Shown here: positions 15,852 to 24,549 of the stretch, one piece after another
How positions within the stretch are numbered: the stretch's first letter is position 1
How the letters are laid out: every line of letters begins with the position of its first letter
Source: Oceanicaulis alexandrii DSM 11625
GTDB lineage: Bacteria; Pseudomonadota; Alphaproteobacteria; Caulobacterales; Maricaulaceae
DNA length: 64,000 bases
Direction: 5' to 3'
NCBI RefSeq assembly: GCF_000420265.1
Contig: NZ_ATUP01000001.1
Location: forward strand, 62,001-126,000
Translations under genes and position numbers: made by a program
Notes under the pieces: generated by a model
Databases searched by the model: none
Seen by the model: only the letters and a program-made list of their open reading frames with translations
What the model was told of the DNA's origin: nothing

Positions 15852-17261
15852 CTAGCCAGCGTCCTCTGTATCGACGTCATCACCTTTGCGGTTCAAACTC
15901 GCTACGCCCAGAGTCTTCAGCTTGCGATGGAGCGCTGAGCGTTCCATGCCGATGAAATTGGCCGTGCGCGAGATATTGCCGCCAAACCGGTTGATCTGCG
16001 CCTTGAGATATTCACGCTCGAAATTCTCACGCGCATCGCGCAAGGGCAAGGCGATCATGCGCTCGGCGTCGAGACCGGTCTCTGCGCTGGTCGCGCGTCC
16101 CGCCACTTCAGACGGCAGGGAATCCAGCGTCACAGGCTCATCGGGCGATCCGGTGGCGAGAATAAGCAGGCGTTCGACGTTATTGCGCAGTTGACGCACA
16201 TTGCCCGGCCAGTCATGCGCCTGCAGCGCCGCCATGGCGTCCTCGCCGATCTTGCGCATGGGCAGGCCTGACATCGCCGTCAGACGCTCGAGGAAGTGAT
16301 TGACCAGAAGCGGAATGTCTTCTCGCCGCTGGGACAGAGACGGCACGTCCAGCGGCACGACCGCCAAACGGTGAAACAAGTCTTCGCGGAACTGCCCCTG
16401 CTCGATCATGCCTTGCAGATCCCGCGCCGTGGAGGACAGAACGCGCACATTGACCTGGACATCCTGAGCGCCGCCAATCCGGCGAAAGCGCTGCTCGACC
16501 AGCATGCGCAGCAGTTTGGCCTGGGTCGCGATCGGCATGTCGCCGACCTCATCGAGGAAAAGCGTCCCACCATGGGCCTGTTCAAGAAAGCCGACGCGCT
16601 CAACACCGCTTTCAGATTCCGCGCCGAACAGCTCCGCTTCAACCCGTTCAGGCGCCATCATCGCCGCCGAGACCGGAATAAAGGGACCATCGGCCCGGGT
16701 GGACTGGGTGTGGATCAGACGAGCGATCAATTCCTTGCCCGAGCCGGAGGGACCGGAGATCAGCACACGCGAATTGGTCGGCGCGACACGGTCTACAGTT
16801 TGCCGCAGTTGAACCGCCGCCGCGGACTCCCCGATCAGATCATTATGAAGTTCGGACTTGGCGCGAAGTTCCGCATTTTCACGGCGCAGTCGACTTGCTT
16901 CAAGCGCCCTCTCAACAGTCAGCAGCAACTTATCAGATTTAAAGGGCTTTTCGATAAAGTCGTAAGCCCCTTTTCGAATAGCGGCGACCGCCGTTTCGAT
17001 TGTGCCATGCCCTGAGATCACAACGACGGGCAAGTCTGGCGCAACGCGTTTGATCTCCGCAAGCAGCTCGATCCCGTCCAATCGGCTGCCCTGAAGCCAG
17101 ACATCCAGAACCGCCAAAGCCGGCTTGCGCCGCCGCACAGCCTCAAGCGCGGTATCGGAATCCCCGGCGTAACGCGGTTCATAGCCTTCATCTTCCAAAA
17201 GCCCGCCAATGAGCTCTCGAATATCGGCTTCATCATCAACAATCAGAATGTCGAGCGACAT
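15852..17261 (-). CDS. ntrX: Response regulator NtrX (AAA+, Fis-type HTH)
   Basis: 469 residues from the ATG at 17261, served by GGAGG 10 bp upstream; an in-frame TTG at 17270 is less likely. The receiver has DDE and a phospho-Asp in LAVLDVWLQG. The AAA+ domain has an intact Walker A (SGPSGSGKELIARL) and Walker B (GGTLFLDEVGDMP). Where sigma-54 activators carry GAFTGA it reads ELFGAESESGVERVGFLEQA, so the sigma-54 contact loop is missing, as known for NtrX proteins. The C-terminal Fis helix-turn-helix (FGGNISRTANFIGMERSALH) is complete. Its kinase NtrY is encoded immediately upstream. NtrX proteins control nitrogen metabolism, respiration and envelope functions in alphaproteobacteria. Confidence 0.95.
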   Translation of the reverse strand: MSLDILIVDDEADIRELIGGLLEDEGYEPRYAGDSDTALEAVRRRKPALAVLDVWLQGSRLDGIELLAEIKRVAPDLPVVVISGHGTIETAVAAIRKGAYDFIEKPFKSDKLLLTVERALEASRLRRENAELRAKSELHNDLIGESAAAVQLRQTVDRVAPTNSRVLISGPSGSGKELIARLIHTQSTRADGPFIPVSAAMMAPERVEAELFGAESESGVERVGFLEQAHGGTLFLDEVGDMPIATQAKLLRMLVEQRFRRIGGAQDVQVNVRVLSSTARDLQGMIEQGQFREDLFHRLAVVPLDVPSLSQRREDIPLLVNHFLERLTAMSGLPMRKIGEDAMAALQAHDWPGNVRQLRNNVERLLILATGSPDEPVTLDSLPSEVAGRATSAETGLDAERMIALPLRDARENFEREYLKAQINRFGGNISRTANFIGMERSALHRKLKTLGVASLNRKGDDVDTEDAG

Positions 17262-17266
17262 TGCGT

Positions 17267-19549
17267 TCAAGCCTCCGCCTGCGCTGGTGTGTCCAACGCG
17301 TCCGTATCGGGTTCAAGCAAGGGAAGTACCAACCGGACCACCGCGCCCCGCATCAGGTCGGGACGGTCATCCAGTTCAAGCCGCCCGCCATGGTCTTCCA
17401 TGATGCGGCGGACAATTGCGAGACCAAGGCCTGTGCCTTTGGCGCGCGTGGTCATATAGGGCTCTGTCAGACGCGCCCGGTCATGTTCGGGCCAGCCCAG
17501 ACCGTTATCGGTTATTTCGATTATCGCCTGACCAGTTTCCGAACCGATTGAAACAGCAATCTGTCCGCCCGCCTTCGAGCCGTCTTGCTCCATGCGGGCC
17601 GAGACGCTTTCGGCGCCGTTCTTGAGCACATTGGCCAAAGCCTGCCCGATCAGCCGTGAATCGCATTCCACCGAAATCGGCCCGCCCTGCACCGTCAGCA
17701 GGACCTGAAGCTCAGGAGACGCGACGCGCTGGGCGAAGACGCAGGCATTGGCGACATCCACCAGATCCGCGACTTCCATCTTGGGCGCAGGCATACGGGC
17801 GAACGCGGAGAATTCATCCACCATGCGGCCAATATCGCTGACCTGACGCACAATGGTGTCAACGCATTTATCAAACGTCTCAAGGCCATCCTCATCAATC
17901 TGCTTGCGATACCGGCGCTTCAATCGCTCGGCGGACAGCTGGATCGGGGTCAGCGGATTTTTGATCTCATGCGCGATACGGCGCGCCACATCCCGCCAGG
18001 CGGCGCTCCGCTGCGCGGCGACAAGGCGCGACACATCGTCAAACGTAATCACTACGCCGCCATCATCGTCCTGCGCAGCCCGGACGCTGAGACTGACGGT
18101 GGCACCGCCCTCTTCCACCAGATCGATCTGGCGCTCGGCGATTTCATCGGGCCGACGGTGAACAGCCTGGAAAACTTCAGAAAATTCAGGCATGACCGTC
18201 TCGATCATATCCCCGACAAGTGCGCCAGGCTCACGCCCCAGAAGCTGCGCGGCGGATCGGTTGACCAGCGAGACGCGGCCATCAGGCTCCAGACCGATCA
18301 CACCGGCGCTGACGCCTGTCAGCACGGCTTCGATGAACGCGCGGCGGCGTTCTGATTCCGCATTGCTTTCCAAAAGCGCGCCGCGCTGACTCTCCAACTG
18401 CCGCGTCATCCGGTTGAAGGCCCGGCTCAGCGCTGCGATCTCGTCATTATCTCGCGCGACCTGAACGCGGGCGCTCAGCTCGCCGCGCCGCACCAGCTCG
18501 GCCGCCGCGACCAATCGACTGACGGGTGACACCACTTGCGCCGCTGCGCTCAAAGCAAGCCAGACCGCCCCCAGAAACACCAGCACCGCCGCCAGTGCGT
18601 AGACGAAGAAGAAGCTGATCCGCATTTGCTGTTCGCTGGCGATCGCTTCACGGAAAGACTGGGTGGCTTCCAGCGCTGCGCTCAACAGGCTGAAATCGAC
18701 AAAGACCAGCGAATACAGATAGGCGTCTTCATATTCAGGCATGCGCAGCAAGACGCGCACATAATCTGGCCCGTCTTCGCGGCGCACCGGAGCCGAGGCG
18801 CTGATATCGCCTTCATTGGCGATGTCGAACAAGGATTGAGATGGCGCGGCGAAGCCCGGCGTCTCCGGAGCCTCGTCGCTGCGCGCCAGGATCGTCGCCT
18901 GACTGTCAATGACATAGAGAGCCGGCAGATTGCGCAGCCGAGCCTGGTTCGTCAGATAGCCACTATACAGAATACGCTGATCTTGCAGGGAATTGACGGC
19001 CTCTGGCGCGGCAAGGTCTTGGACGATCCCGCGCATGTGATCGCCTGTCTGGCTCAACGCCACTTGCGGCCATTCATTGCCGAGCTCCGCCGTCGTCTCC
19101 ACCAGTGTGTTGACCCGCTCTGCAAACCAGAACTCCACGCCGCGATTGAGCACCAGCGCCTGAAACCCCGCCATCAGAACCGCCGGAACGACCGCCGCAA
19201 CGGCGAACAGGGTGATGAAGCGCATTTGCAGACGGGGCGCGGCGGATGCGCCCCCTTGCGTGCCTCTGAGCTGCTGCATCACGCGCAGATAAACCGCGAC
19301 GGCGAGCACGCCCAGCAATGCGGCCACCAACGCCATGAGCGTGATGAAGCCCCACCCGCCGGGACCGAACCGGCCCTCATGGAAAACTGATAGCAGGGCG
19401 AGCAGAACCACGCCCAGCGTCGCCACAACGAAGCCGAGTAAGAATAGCGTGGATTGTCGCCAAGCTGGATTGCCCGCAAACTTTGGCAAGTTGCGCGTCT
19501 CCTTGCGTCCCCTCAGAGACAGCTTGGCCCATATGTGACGGAAATTCAA
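17267..19549 (-). CDS. ntrY: Membrane sensor histidine kinase NtrY
   Basis: 760 residues. The N-terminal region has several membrane helices (LFLLGFVVATLGVVLLALL, GFITLMALVAALLGVLAVAV, FITLFAVAAVVPAVLMAGF) around a periplasmic segment, followed by a further helix at about 315-340. Then come HAMP (SRLVAAAELVRRGELSARV), PAS (FIEAVLTGVSAGVIGLEPDG), an H-box (VARRIAHEIKNPLTPIQLSA) and HATPase (NVLKNGAESV, GTGLGLAIVRRIMEDHGG). This is the standard NtrY arrangement. It lies 12 bp after ntrC and 5 bp before ntrX, within one long transcript. Confidence 0.95.
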   Translation of the reverse strand: MNFRHIWAKLSLRGRKETRNLPKFAGNPAWRQSTLFLLGFVVATLGVVLLALLSVFHEGRFGPGGWGFITLMALVAALLGVLAVAVYLRVMQQLRGTQGGASAAPRLQMRFITLFAVAAVVPAVLMAGFQALVLNRGVEFWFAERVNTLVETTAELGNEWPQVALSQTGDHMRGIVQDLAAPEAVNSLQDQRILYSGYLTNQARLRNLPALYVIDSQATILARSDEAPETPGFAAPSQSLFDIANEGDISASAPVRREDGPDYVRVLLRMPEYEDAYLYSLVFVDFSLLSAALEATQSFREAIASEQQMRISFFFVYALAAVLVFLGAVWLALSAAAQVVSPVSRLVAAAELVRRGELSARVQVARDNDEIAALSRAFNRMTRQLESQRGALLESNAESERRRAFIEAVLTGVSAGVIGLEPDGRVSLVNRSAAQLLGREPGALVGDMIETVMPEFSEVFQAVHRRPDEIAERQIDLVEEGGATVSLSVRAAQDDDGGVVITFDDVSRLVAAQRSAAWRDVARRIAHEIKNPLTPIQLSAERLKRRYRKQIDEDGLETFDKCVDTIVRQVSDIGRMVDEFSAFARMPAPKMEVADLVDVANACVFAQRVASPELQVLLTVQGGPISVECDSRLIGQALANVLKNGAESVSARMEQDGSKAGGQIAVSIGSETGQAIIEITDNGLGWPEHDRARLTEPYMTTRAKGTGLGLAIVRRIMEDHGGRLELDDRPDLMRGAVVRLVLPLLEPDTDALDTPAQAEA

Positions 19550-19561
19550 CGGGTGTGGCTT

Positions 19562-20833
19562 CTAGGTCTCATCGCCGTCTGACTGCAAAGCAGCCATACG
19601 CCTCGTCAGCGTGTTTCGGTTCAATCCCAGCAGCTTAGCAGCATCCTGCCGGACGCCGTTTGACGATTCCAGCGCCGCAGCGAACAAGCCACGGTCGACA
19701 GCGATCTGGGCTTTCTCACCTATGCCGCTCTCTCCAAGCGCCAAAGCTGTTCCGAAGAATCGCGCTGCGGCCTCACTCAAATCCACCCCCGGATCACGAC
19801 CGGAAAACTCATGGATGGCGGCTTCGATCTCCTCGACCGACAAGGGGCCACGCGCGCCCTGCATGCTAAGATGCAGGGCGACGCGCTTCAATCCCAGCAC
19901 TTCACCCGGCCAGACCTGACTGTTGATAAAGGCCCGCACCGTCTCATCCATTTCGCGAGGCGTGGATTGCTCTGACAGGAAGTGAGCGAACAGAAGCGCC
20001 CGGTCTCCCCCCCGATCACGCAGAGGCGGCAATTGGACACGCCCGATCGCCAAATGAGACAACAGGACCGGCCTTAAATGCTCACCAATGTCCGGGGTCG
20101 CGGTCGCCAGAATACGGGGACTATCCCCGCGCGGGGTTTCCAGCGCCTCAAGAACCCAATCCTGGCAGTCCTCGTCCCAGCGCTCAGCGCGACGGAGGAT
20201 CAAGGCGCCGCCGGCCGCTGTTTCAAGCAAGGCCGGCCCTTCGCGTCGCATCCGCGCCGGCCCCGCCTCTATGACAGGACCCGCAATACCGCTCTCAGCG
20301 ATGAGAACCCGGGCGCTGTGCGCCCGGCCACTCCCCTCAGGCCCGGTAAACAATACCGGCGAGGAGGTCCGCGCAAGTCGTCCCAGGGCGCGAAACGCTT
20401 CCTGCATCGCCGATGAGCGGCCGACCAAGCCACCAAACCCCTGCGACGAAGCGACAGGGAGCACCGGGCCCACATCTTCAAGCGATCTCTTGATAACCGA
20501 GACCATCTCATTGAGATCAAATGGCTTTGGCAAATACTCGAAGACACCAGCCTTGCCGGCTTCGATCGCAGTGCGCGCCGTGGTCTGAGCACTCATGATG
20601 ATGACGGGTATGTCGGGCCGCACACGGGTGACCTCGTCCAGGCGGTCCAGAAAGCTCTCCCGCCCCAACAAAACGTCCGCAAGCAGCACATCGACTTCAC
20701 GCCGCGCCAGTCGTTCAAGCGCCGCATCAGCGGATGCGGTGGCGCGCACTTCAAACCCGGCGCGCGACAGCGCCTTCGCGATCACAAGACGCAGGGATTC
20801 ATCATCTTCCAGTATCAGGACCCGGTGCGCCAT
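19562..20833 (-). CDS. ntrC: NtrC-type response regulator with a degenerate AAA+ domain
   Basis: 423 residues, shorter than typical NtrC (about 470-480). Its position between ntrB and ntrY identifies it. The receiver is normal (ILEDDES, D53 in LLADVLLG, K103 in YLPKPFD). The central domain is eroded: Walker A reads GPEGSGR (164-170, the catalytic Lys is Arg), Walker B reads GGALILRRAER (the Asp-Glu pair is Arg-Arg at 214-215). The GAFTGA loop segment is absent, and the FREDLFYRL-type arginine-finger region reads LRPVLLSHL. The C-terminal Fis HTH (QDAAKLLGLNRNTLTRRMAA) is intact. I infer a DNA-binding regulator that cannot hydrolyse ATP or remodel sigma-54 holoenzyme. No stop or frameshift interrupts it and both flanking overlaps are kept, so it is probably functional. 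Confidence 0.9.
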   Translation of the reverse strand: MAHRVLILEDDESLRLVIAKALSRAGFEVRATASADAALERLARREVDVLLADVLLGRESFLDRLDEVTRVRPDIPVIIMSAQTTARTAIEAGKAGVFEYLPKPFDLNEMVSVIKRSLEDVGPVLPVASSQGFGGLVGRSSAMQEAFRALGRLARTSSPVLFTGPEGSGRAHSARVLIAESGIAGPVIEAGPARMRREGPALLETAAGGALILRRAERWDEDCQDWVLEALETPRGDSPRILATATPDIGEHLRPVLLSHLAIGRVQLPPLRDRGGDRALLFAHFLSEQSTPREMDETVRAFINSQVWPGEVLGLKRVALHLSMQGARGPLSVEEIEAAIHEFSGRDPGVDLSEAAARFFGTALALGESGIGEKAQIAVDRGLFAAALESSNGVRQDAAKLLGLNRNTLTRRMAALQSDGDET

Positions 20834-21879
20834 CAGCCGTCCTTACGCTCTACAGGCAGGTAGAAATGAAACTCTGTCCGCCCCGGACGAGTCTCAAACT
20901 CGACGCCGCCATTGAGAAGGTCCGCGACACGGCTGACAAGCGCCAGGCCCAGTCCCTCGCCCGCCGGTTTGCCGGTGACAAAAGGATTGAAGATCGCGTC
21001 TCGAAGCGCATCATCAACGCCCGGACCATCATCTTCAATGGCGATTTCAAGACGGGCGTCCGGCGCCGGACCACCCGGTCTGGGTTGACGATAGCGCGTA
21101 TAGACTTTCACCCGACCGCCCCCCTGGCAGGCCGCTTCACCCGCATTGATCAGCAGATTGAGCACCGCCTGGGAAACAAGGTCGCGATCCGCCAGGGCAT
21201 CGGGCAAGGAGGGATCAAAATACTCTAGCCAGACGACTTCCGGAGACGCGGACGCCCGAGCTGAACGTACGGCTTCGCGCACAAGCGCATGAAGGTTGAC
21301 CCGCCCCAGTCGCGGCGGCCCGATATCACCCACCCGGCTCCAGCGCTCTGCGATACGGCGCGCGCGATCAAGTTCGGTGATGATCAGGGTCGCCAGTTCT
21401 CGGCTTTCCTCATCCTCGCTCTGGGCGATGAGTTGCGCAGCGCCCCGTGCGCCCGCCATGGGGTTTTTAAGCTCATGCGACAGCATCATTCCAAAGCCTG
21501 CCGCTGCGTTCGCCGCCACGTCACTGCGGGCGCCGCCGCCAGATTCCGGCCAGGGCCGCAGACAGACGCACACGCCTGTTTCATCAGGAGAGACATCCAC
21601 CGAAATGCGCAGAGCGCGATCCGCCACCCCCACGGGCAAATCATGAGCGTACAGGGACCGGTTCTCGAGGAGCGACCGCCGCGCAAGCTCAGAAGACGCC
21701 CTGCCGACTGGCCCCGCATCTTCAAGTGTTTTGCCAATCAGGCGTTTGCGCGATTGCCCGAACAGGATCTCAGCGCGTGCATTGGCGAAGACGATTTCGC
21801 CCGCTTCATCCAGCAACACCAACGCAATCGGCGCAGCCTCGGCGGCGCGTTCCGACAGGGAGGGCGCAGCGTCGCTCAA
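20833..21879 (-). CDS. ntrB: Nitrogen regulation histidine kinase NtrB
   Basis: 348 residues, cytosolic, with an N-terminal PAS domain ([20 protein letters not shown]), the H-box [21 protein letters not shown]-box [11 protein letters not shown] and G-boxes [13 protein letters not shown] and [17 protein letters not shown]. NtrB normally phosphorylates or dephosphorylates NtrC according to PII state. All kinase motifs are intact, in contrast with the damaged ATPase domain of its partner. The start is a TTG overlapping the dusB stop by 4 bp (TTGA), and its stop overlaps the ntrC ATG by 1 bp (TGATG), so dusB-ntrB-ntrC is tightly coupled. Confidence 0.94.
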
Positions 21880-23409: not shown

Positions 23410-24549
23410 ATGGGCTATAGCGCATGCATCGTCGCTGCCGGGCGCGGAACGCGCGCTGGCGCTGGGACGCCAAAACAGTTTCGCAATTTGGCGGGGCGCC
23501 CCGTGCTGTCCTACAGCATCAATCGGTTCGCCCAGGATCCAGCCTGCACGCAAATCATCATCGCACATGCGCCGCGTCAGGCCGAAGCGGTGCGCGCCTG
23601 CCTGAATGGCGCCGAGGCCGTCCTTGTCGAAGGGGGCGAGACGCGCACCCAGTCCGTGCGCAACGCCCTCGCCCATGTGTCGCACGAACAGGTGCTGATC
23701 CATGACGCTGCGCGGCCGCTGGTGTCCGACGCCGTGATCGCCCGCTTGCGCGCCGCGCTGGACAGCGCACCTGGCGCCGCGCCCGCTCTGCCGGTGGCCG
23801 ACGCCCTGGCGCTATCTGATGACGCTGGCGTTACGCCGGTCAGTCGGGAGGGCCTGTATCGTCTTCAAACGCCGCAAGCATTTCAAACCCAGCTTTTGCG
23901 CGAGGCTTTCCAGGCCGCTTCAACCGATTATCCTGATGAGGTCTCGCTGGCACGCGCTAGCGGGCTTAATGTCATGCTGACCCAAGGTGAGGAACGCAAT
24001 TTCAAAGTGACTTACCCGGACGATTTTGAACGTGCTGAGCAAGCGTTGGCTGGCGGCGCATCACCTGCCGCCCTCACCGTGACCGGCATGGGCTATGATG
24101 TGCACCGCATGGCGGCGGGCGATGGCGTACATCTGTGCGGGGTATTCATTGAGTGCCCCTACCGGCTGATCGGGCATTCGGACGCCGACGCCGGCCTTCA
24201 CGCCATCACAGACGCTCTGCTGGGCGCGGCGGGGCTGGGCGATATCGGCGACCACTTCCCGCCCAGCGATGACCAATGGAAAGGCGCGGATTCTGCGATG
24301 TTTCTCGCGCACGCCGCCAAGATCGCCGCAGAAGCTGGAGCGCGCGCGGTCCATGTGGATGTCACGCTGATATGCGAACGCCCCAAGATCGGCCCGCACA
24401 AAGCCGCCATGAAATCCCGCGTCGCCGAGATTCTGGACCTTGATCCCAGGCGAGTGAACATCAAGGCGACCACCACAGAAAAGCTCGGCTTCACCGGTCG
24501 CGGCGAAGGGCTGGCGGCGGAAGCGATTGTAACGGCGGTGCTGTCATGA
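23410..24549 (+). CDS. ispDF: Bifunctional IspD/IspF isoprenoid enzyme
   Basis: 379 residues fusing two steps of the MEP pathway. The N-terminal IspD part (about 1-220) has ACIVAAGRGTRAGAG plus PKQF and makes CDP-methylerythritol from MEP. The C-terminal IspF part (about 222-379) has GMGYDVHRM, the metal-binding IGHSDADAGLHAITDAL and GDIGDHFPPSD, and makes the cyclodiphosphate. The fusion is common in alphaproteobacteria and omits IspE. It lies in an operon with pncC, with a 4-bp ATGA overlap. Confidence 0.97.
   Translation: MGYSACIVAAGRGTRAGAGTPKQFRNLAGRPVLSYSINRFAQDPACTQIIIAHAPRQAEAVRACLNGAEAVLVEGGETRTQSVRNALAHVSHEQVLIHDAARPLVSDAVIARLRAALDSAPGAAPALPVADALALSDDAGVTPVSREGLYRLQTPQAFQTQLLREAFQAASTDYPDEVSLARASGLNVMLTQGEERNFKVTYPDDFERAEQALAGGASPAALTVTGMGYDVHRMAAGDGVHLCGVFIECPYRLIGHSDADAGLHAITDALLGAAGLGDIGDHFPPSDDQWKGADSAMFLAHAAKIAAEAGARAVHVDVTLICERPKIGPHKAAMKSRVAEILDLDPRRVNIKATTTEKLGFTGRGEGLAAEAIVTAVLS

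Follow-up and report, generated by a model that had tools for sequence, protein, structure and literature searches.

A conserved NtrC-like regulator with a catalytically degenerate AAA+ domain in Oceanicaulis alexandrii and related bacteria

What remains of an NtrC when the residues that drive its ATPase motor have been replaced, while the reading frame, the partner kinase and the DNA-binding domain are kept? This question is raised by the ntrC-like gene of Oceanicaulis alexandrii DSM 11625, which lies within a 64-kb stretch of contig NZ_ATUP01000001.1 (the whole stretch analysed, hereafter the window). An earlier note on this DNA described an NtrC with a 'dismantled' AAA+ domain and proposed a sigma-54-independent, ATP-independent regulator paired with an intact NtrB. 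The note gave no strand; the ORF list and translation place the gene on the minus strand, encoding a protein of 423 aa (Table 1). On that strand the order is dusB, ntrB, the ntrC-like gene, ntrY, ntrX and a trkA-like gene, the ntr labels being taken from Pfam and NCBIfam and the dusB and trkA labels assigned by eye. The ATG of ntrC and the stop codon of ntrB overlap by one base (TGATG). Elsewhere in the window, a single 379-aa ORF on the plus strand (23410-24549) resembles an IspD-IspF fusion and is followed at 24546 by a CinA-like ORF, both named by eye.

The top NCBIfam model for the protein was the ntrC equivalog TIGR01818, with a score (232.7 bits) that falls short of the cut-off of 558.6. 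The gene is nevertheless an ntrC by orthology: it sits beside ntrB and ntrY-ntrX and groups with the NtrC proteins of related families, a grouping supported by a 116-row tree. NtrB orthologues adjoin ntrC in relatives, and the pairing with NtrB was rightly proposed. The kinase itself had NF008293 as its top NCBIfam model (158.5 bits, cut-off 240). The NtrX protein passes its own model, NF051870 (778.2 bits, cut-off 600); it too is without GAFTGA, and retains GPSGSGKE and LFLDE. A PF00158 search of the genome returned six matches, namely two canonical bacterial enhancer-binding proteins (bEBPs), ntrX, the ntrC-like gene and two Clp-type-like ATPases, the bEBPs (which resemble TacA and FlbD) and the Clp-type proteins being labelled by eye rather than by library scoring. 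The second canonical ntrC that the earlier note had named as a possible refutation did not appear among these six matches. The genome carries rpoN, and a sigma-54 gene was present in all 27 genomes tested.

The Pfam matches to the receiver (REC) and Fis-type HTH (HTH_8) domains were clear, and those to the central domain weaker (Sigma54_activ_2, and Sigma54_activat at 6.7e-5 over residues 136-181 only). Pfam and a residue check confirmed that the receiver and HTH are complete, and the residues of both are invariant in the 23 proteins of the clade described below: D10, D11, D53 and K103 occur in 23/23, and residue 81 is Ser in 22 and Thr in one, the residue set of a two-component response regulator. 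The motor residues were also read correctly in the first description. The Walker A Lys is Arg (R170), the Walker B Asp-Glu is Arg-Arg (residues 214-215) and GAFTGA is missing, so that, of the GAFTGA loop, the two Walker features and the AAA+ fold that mark a sigma-54 bEBP, the fold alone is present, by prediction. In the alignment, the L1 segment has 25 residues here and 45 in all six GAFTGA-bearing outgroups. The L2 segment, which we take to be the second sigma-54 contact loop, has 15 residues here, 13-15 across the 23 clade proteins and 25 in the same six outgroups. The arginine-finger region had been called not recognisable, which proved wrong, as the alignment places it: finger position 1 is Arg here (R254) but in only 3/23 clade proteins, and finger position 2, an Arg in 15/23, is occupied by His (H260) in this protein. 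At the sensor II position the protein has Leu (L313), and two of the 23 have Arg. The finger and sensor labels follow PspF, in part after PMC4132715.

Table 1. Coordinates of the ntrC-like gene, its neighbours and its encoded features (positions in the window)
Feature	Position	Strand	Basis
ntrC-like gene, catalytically degenerate AAA+	19562..20833	minus	ORF, translation, Pfam, NCBIfam, orthologues
ntrB, kinase paired with ntrC, with HELKNP box and ATPase domain	20833..21879	minus	Pfam, sequence, relatives
ntrY-like kinase (NtrY_N domain), 3' of ntrC	17267..19549	minus	Pfam PF19312 6.7e-16
ntrX, Walker A and B intact, without GAFTGA	15852..17270	minus	NCBIfam NF051870, sequence
Receiver domain, residues 5-114; D10, D11, D53, S81, K103 intact	20492..20821	minus	Pfam PF00072 1.7e-20, residues
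D53 codon, predicted phosphorylation site	20675..20677	minus	D in 23/23 clade proteins
AAA+ core, residues 136-270	20024..20428	minus	Pfam PF14532 2.1e-8 (137-271), AlphaFold, Foldseek
P-loop TGPEGSGRA, residues 163-171, R170 replacing Walker A Lys	20321..20347	minus	Sequence, relatives
Residues 186-210, site of L1/GAFTGA deletion	20204..20278	minus	Alignment
Former Walker B LILRRAERW, residues 211-219 (R214-R215, W219)	20177..20203	minus	Sequence, relatives
Shortened L2 (pre-sensor I) segment, residues 225-239	20117..20161	minus	Alignment
Arginine-finger region, residues 249-262 (R254, H260)	20048..20089	minus	Alignment
Sensor II region, residues 306-318, L313 replacing Arg	19880..19918	minus	Alignment
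Fis-type HTH, residues 380-416, recognition-helix RNT intact	19586..19696	minus	Pfam PF02954 7.4e-11, residues

Orthologues were sought in 398 genomes of the order, and 110 of them (30 + 20 + 60 loci) were read, picked from the matches listed in a way that favours query-like proteins. R170 was found in 23 sequences of five genera (numbered here with a g, and families with an f), and in every member of the clade that they form: 13 in g1, this gene included, six in g6, two in g16 and one each in g5 and g13. None of the remaining 87 orthologues carries it, and among the 110 the loss of the Walker A Lys is confined to this clade. The Walker B pair is lost in all 23 as well (RR in 22, RD in one), with R214 and W219 in 23/23 and R215 in 22/23. 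Relatives thus share the substitutions, which the earlier note had named as a sign of function, and 'dismantled' is apt only in part, since a new conserved R214/R215/W219 motif occupies the place of Walker B. A sequence error at the motifs did not appear, since relatives carry the same residues. A sequencing error or a pseudogene can be ruled out on the presence of R170 in 23/23 proteins of five genera, low dN/dS and a confident AAA+ prediction.

Across the order, GAFTGA was absent from all 110 orthologues read. The Walker B DE pair is intact in f2 (10/10), f3 (3/3) and seven genera of f1 (26/26), and altered in 71 of the 110: f4 (24/24), g8 (7/7), g7 (17/17) and the R170 clade (23/23). The replacement is DR in g8 and LR in g7, and many different pairs are found in f4. 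Nine f4 proteins have ED and three DD, and because these are two acidic residues, ATPase activity may persist in them. Members of f4 (e.g. L132, L133, L195-L215) keep the P-loop Lys, the finger 1 Arg and the sensor II Arg in 24/24, and their Walker B change is a further alteration of the ATP site, of separate origin. In g8 (L120-L122, L184-L187), the P-loop Lys is kept with DR in 7/7, and sister genera retain DE. When the motif columns were left out of the tree, at least one change was needed for Walker A and at least four for the Walker B pair; it should be noted that the tree was a quick build whose deep branches are long and whose support is uneven. It joins the R170 clade to g7 (40 rows, SH-aLRT 100), and W219 is common to all 40. 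Taken at face value, this distribution indicates that motor losses in the order are stepwise and parallel. In a first tree, three gammaproteobacterial outgroups (L060, L063, L098) fell inside the order beside the fast clade, a join flagged by the program as possibly false; these and L105, the contig of which has the length of that of L224, were removed for a second tree, and L037 is absent from both trees, as it shares a contig with L016.

Other lineages of the order show losses of a different kind. In four g2 loci of the same family (L257-L260), ntrC directly follows dusB with no ntrB between, and an ntrB search of the four genomes returned weak general kinase matches only. The receiver acidic pair is replaced in these proteins (HN in three, another pair in L260), and the P-loop Lys is kept in 4/4 and the Walker B DE in 3/4. 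It is the input side rather than the motor that these sequences have lost. L260 carries RR, which apparently arose independently of the R170 clade. Weak general kinase matches were likewise all that the ntrB search gave in the genomes tested of g3, g9 and g17 (f1), g20 (f3), and g22, g26 and g32 (f5), and the best orthologue matches in five genomes (of g3, g9, g17, g20 and g22) extend over the N-terminal half of the protein or over a portion of it; ntrBC seems to have been lost repeatedly in the order. One g1 genome (G363; 1.7 Mb in 240 contigs) gave just a 32% match over residues 2-184. A wider contig scan returned 80 loci, comprising the close relative L037 and 79 loci at 29-33% identity with titles mostly from other Pseudomonadota.

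For 13 closely related pairs of clade members, whole-gene dN/dS was 0.05-0.15, and no domain exceeded 0.16 where a value could be computed, with some synonymous distances near saturation and three domain values not computable. At an effective sequence number of 15 in both clades, the entropy of the AAA+ core outside the motifs was 1.60 bits in the R170 clade against 0.71 for the receiver, and the corresponding values in the DE-intact clade were 0.60 and 0.62 bits. By this measure the AAA+ core outside the motifs is relaxed in the R170 clade. Amid this relaxation, of the 199 nonamers that span the AAA+/lid region in the clade, the one with the lowest entropy is the P-loop with its Arg (0.33 bits), and neither R214 nor W219 varies. 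The catalytic residues have gone, yet the pattern of conservation points firmly to selection having kept the Arg-bearing P-loop and the motif that replaces Walker B.

AlphaFold2, run with 34 sequences, gave a model with a mean pLDDT of 86.1 and a pTM of 0.66, and block means of 83-95 over residues 141-270. The alignment was mostly of canonical NtrC, which may bias the model towards the canonical fold. The top Foldseek matches were Brucella NtrX with ATP or ADP, NtrC4, NtrC1 and LuxO, and the listing also included VpsR (7v2b) and FleQ. The AAA+ part superposed on active-state NtrC1 (1ny6_A) with an rmsd of 2.2 over 244 columns. The AAA+ domain is thus predicted to keep its fold.

The conservation of the P-loop bears directly on the term 'ATP-independent'. 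Loss of hydrolysis is well supported by the sequence, as the catalytic residues are gone and the relatives read are uniform in this respect. To claim that ligand binding is lost as well would overreach for a P-loop that ranks first among the nonamers. It is possible, though we rate it below an even chance, that ATP or ADP still occupies the AAA+ domain as an allosteric ligand that is not hydrolysed, with Arg taking the place of Lys at the phosphates. This would be a special case of the reading that we favour below, and it contradicts ATP independence. The residue at position 170 is Arg in 23/23 rather than a random assortment, and there are precedents: PMC10274813 cites Rhodobacter capsulatus NtrC as a protein that must bind ATP but need not hydrolyse it, and PspF E108Q binds ATP more tightly with an ATPase activity under 1% (PMC4132715). 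Set against these points, replacement of both the Walker B Asp and Glu by Arg would be unfavourable for Mg-ATP, and few clade members keep the sensor II Arg.

Whether the protein still has a target was addressed at glnB, which is followed by glnA in this genome. From 34 genomes of the family (16 + 18 loci) we compared the 240 bp that precede glnB, a set in which the glnA position was checked for this genome and two others. In 25 of the 34, this genome included, two YGC-N11-GCR sites occur at a spacing of exactly 21 bp, and the pair begins 125-128 bp ahead of glnB; the loci are related and do not represent 34 independent events. The pair occurs in g1 (12/13, including this genome), g7 (9/9), g16 (2/2), g5 (1/1) and g6 (1/6, the five other g6 loci having the downstream site only), and was absent from the single glnB loci of g13, g4 and g12. 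Shuffled sequences gave a mean of 0.036 loci with the pair (maximum one), and other spacings from 17 to 32 bp gave zero, one or two loci. The signal emerged only once position and spacing were compared: in 16 of the glnB loci, the palindrome TGCACC-N5-GGTGCA taken alone was slightly nearer to consensus than in shuffles (3.56 mean mismatches versus 4.14), a sigma-54 -24/-12 element did not rise above shuffles (4.19 versus 4.01) and no sigma-70 promoter stood out (5.25 versus 5.24).

In this genome the pair lies at G000:C1:214362-214399, outside the window. It sits between glnB (L238) and a divergent gene named nnrD-like by look, and may serve both. Among 32 upstream regions mostly from other genera, with a glnA motif downstream in 26, single sites were common and the 21-bp pair occurred in three (L358, L369, L364), for which reason the paired element probably predates the R170 clade. 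The tandem pattern was not enriched across this genome (10 matches versus 16 for a reversed control), and summed over eight genomes it gave 96 matches versus 77. The window held no such pair, against 1.02 expected, and hence no candidate for autoregulation through a site of this kind. Taken together, the upstream comparisons lead us to presume that the glnB target of NtrC survives in the clade.

A tandem pair of sites well upstream of a start codon is an activator-like arrangement. This counts against the idea that the protein is mainly a repressor or DNA-structuring protein rather than an activator of glnBA, an idea that we consider improbable; a dead ATPase is easily compatible with repression, and Caulobacter NtrC represses as well as activates, but it activates glnBA directly (both from the accessible part of PMC10274813). 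It is very improbable that the protein modulates sigma-54 promoters by joining the rings of the two canonical bEBPs. The genome does supply these bEBPs and rpoN, and in Caulobacter the levels of sigma-54-dependent flagellar transcripts rose with NtrC mutants that do not bind DNA (PMC12421884), but those mutants keep an intact AAA+ domain, and the AAA+ surface is strongly diverged here. Decay of the gene towards loss, which the entropy contrast with the DE-intact clade and the lack of NtrB matches of comparable strength in other lineages of the order might suggest, is hardly credible given uninterrupted frames in all 23 clade genes, the low dN/dS of every computable domain and the invariant P-loop, R214 and W219.

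The reading that we favour, and consider likely, is that the protein is a phosphorylation-controlled regulator of glnBA that neither hydrolyses ATP nor uses sigma-54. The sole NtrC found in the genome would be a two-component regulator unable to hydrolyse ATP or to remodel sigma-54 RNA polymerase. NtrB would phosphorylate D53, as the complete receiver and the overlap of the two genes suggest, and phosphorylation would set the association of dimers. Two dimers would occupy the TGC-N11-GCA-like sites upstream of glnB-glnA, two helical turns apart and presumably on one face of the DNA, and transcription by a sigma-70-type polymerase would be regulated, and by analogy with Caulobacter probably activated. 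The AAA+ domain would serve as an assembly platform with its predicted fold retained, and the Arg-bearing P-loop would be kept for structure or for holding a nucleotide or other anion without hydrolysis.

This reading is supported by the replacement of the Walker A Lys by R170 and the loss of Walker B in 23/23, the loss of GAFTGA and L2 alongside an invariant receiver and HTH, the low dN/dS, the resemblance of the AAA+ model to NtrC1, the 21-bp site pair, the glnB-glnA order, the lack of a -24/-12 element above shuffles and the precedent of Caulobacter NtrC. Sigma-54 independence, proposed from the outset, is well supported, with both contact loops gone and this state fixed in the relatives read. 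Several points count against the favoured reading. Caulobacter NtrC mutants K178A and D235A fail to grow on ammonium (PMC10274813, in the part available), and a relative without these residues would have to work differently. If the domain had neither a ligand nor a structural demand at the P-loop, conservation as strong as this would not be expected. Nine of the 34 glnB loci lack the site pair, including five of the six in g6, which shares the R170 state; the pattern is not enriched across this genome, nor did a sigma-70 promoter stand out. Finally, the mostly canonical AlphaFold alignment may have imposed the fold.

We further speculate, with considerable doubt, that the P-loop and the RR-x-x-x-W motif form a repurposed, non-hydrolytic ligand pocket. 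In that case the regulator would respond both to phosphorylation by NtrB and to a small anionic ligand (ATP/ADP, ppGpp or a cyclic dinucleotide), and at sigma-70 promoters it would work as a tetramer bound to two sites and not as a hexameric motor. According to PMC10714721, an Arg that closely follows Walker A helps FleQ and VfmH to bind a ligand of the c-di-GMP type. The corresponding residue 175 is Arg in 22/23 clade proteins; it does not discriminate, because all six canonical outgroups carry Arg too, and a c-di-GMP-type ligand is only a lead.

The order offers a natural series that begins with DE-intact proteins, passes through forms with a changed Walker B and ends with proteins in which both Walker residues are lost. 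NtrC-like sites are kept upstream of glnB in this series, making the role of ATP testable by orthologue swaps. It clearly illustrates how a motor protein can turn, stepwise and in parallel lineages, into a regulator that simply binds DNA. With signal input and DNA reading intact but the motor residues replaced, NtrC of the clade would control the glutamine-making genes more simply than textbook NtrC does. GAFTGA-less NtrC and ATP-independent bEBPs are already known; an NtrC clade without either Walker feature that is coupled to NtrB and has kept its glnB sites was not found in the literature searched, which included few subscription papers.

The closest described system is Caulobacter crescentus NtrC which, according to PMC10274813, is without GAFTGA (a trait that the earlier note gave for Caulobacter relatives), binds at the promoter of glnBA and works with sigma-70 promoters, by a mechanism called unclear there for which ATP-site residues are needed. 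The two proteins share the REC-AAA+-Fis HTH architecture, the ntrB-ntrC-ntrY-ntrX cluster, the missing GAFTGA and a glnBA target (presumed here). They differ in that Lys178 and Asp235 of the Caulobacter protein, needed on ammonium, are both Arg here, and the L1 deletion is larger, leaving 25 residues versus 36 in three f3 sequences; the protein therefore departs from the Caulobacter-type GAFTGA-less NtrC. As cited in the same paper, Rhodobacter capsulatus NtrC has L1/GAFTGA deleted, depends on phosphorylation and works with sigma-70, the latter two being features that we would also expect here; its need for ATP binding cannot be assumed for our protein, and the likeness is one of description rather than of sequence alignment. 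Vibrio cholerae VpsR also has a bEBP fold without GAFTGA, and is reported to work without ATP at sigma-70 promoters (PMC10274813, in which it appears as VspR). In contrast to the phosphorylation-controlled regulator that we propose, VpsR is reported not to depend on phosphorylation and to bind c-di-GMP (the latter in PMC12564702); it is likened here by fold match and description. Brucella abortus NtrX (5m7n) is the best sequence and fold match and has the same REC-AAA+ architecture, but it retains the P-loop Lys and was solved with ATP and with ADP.
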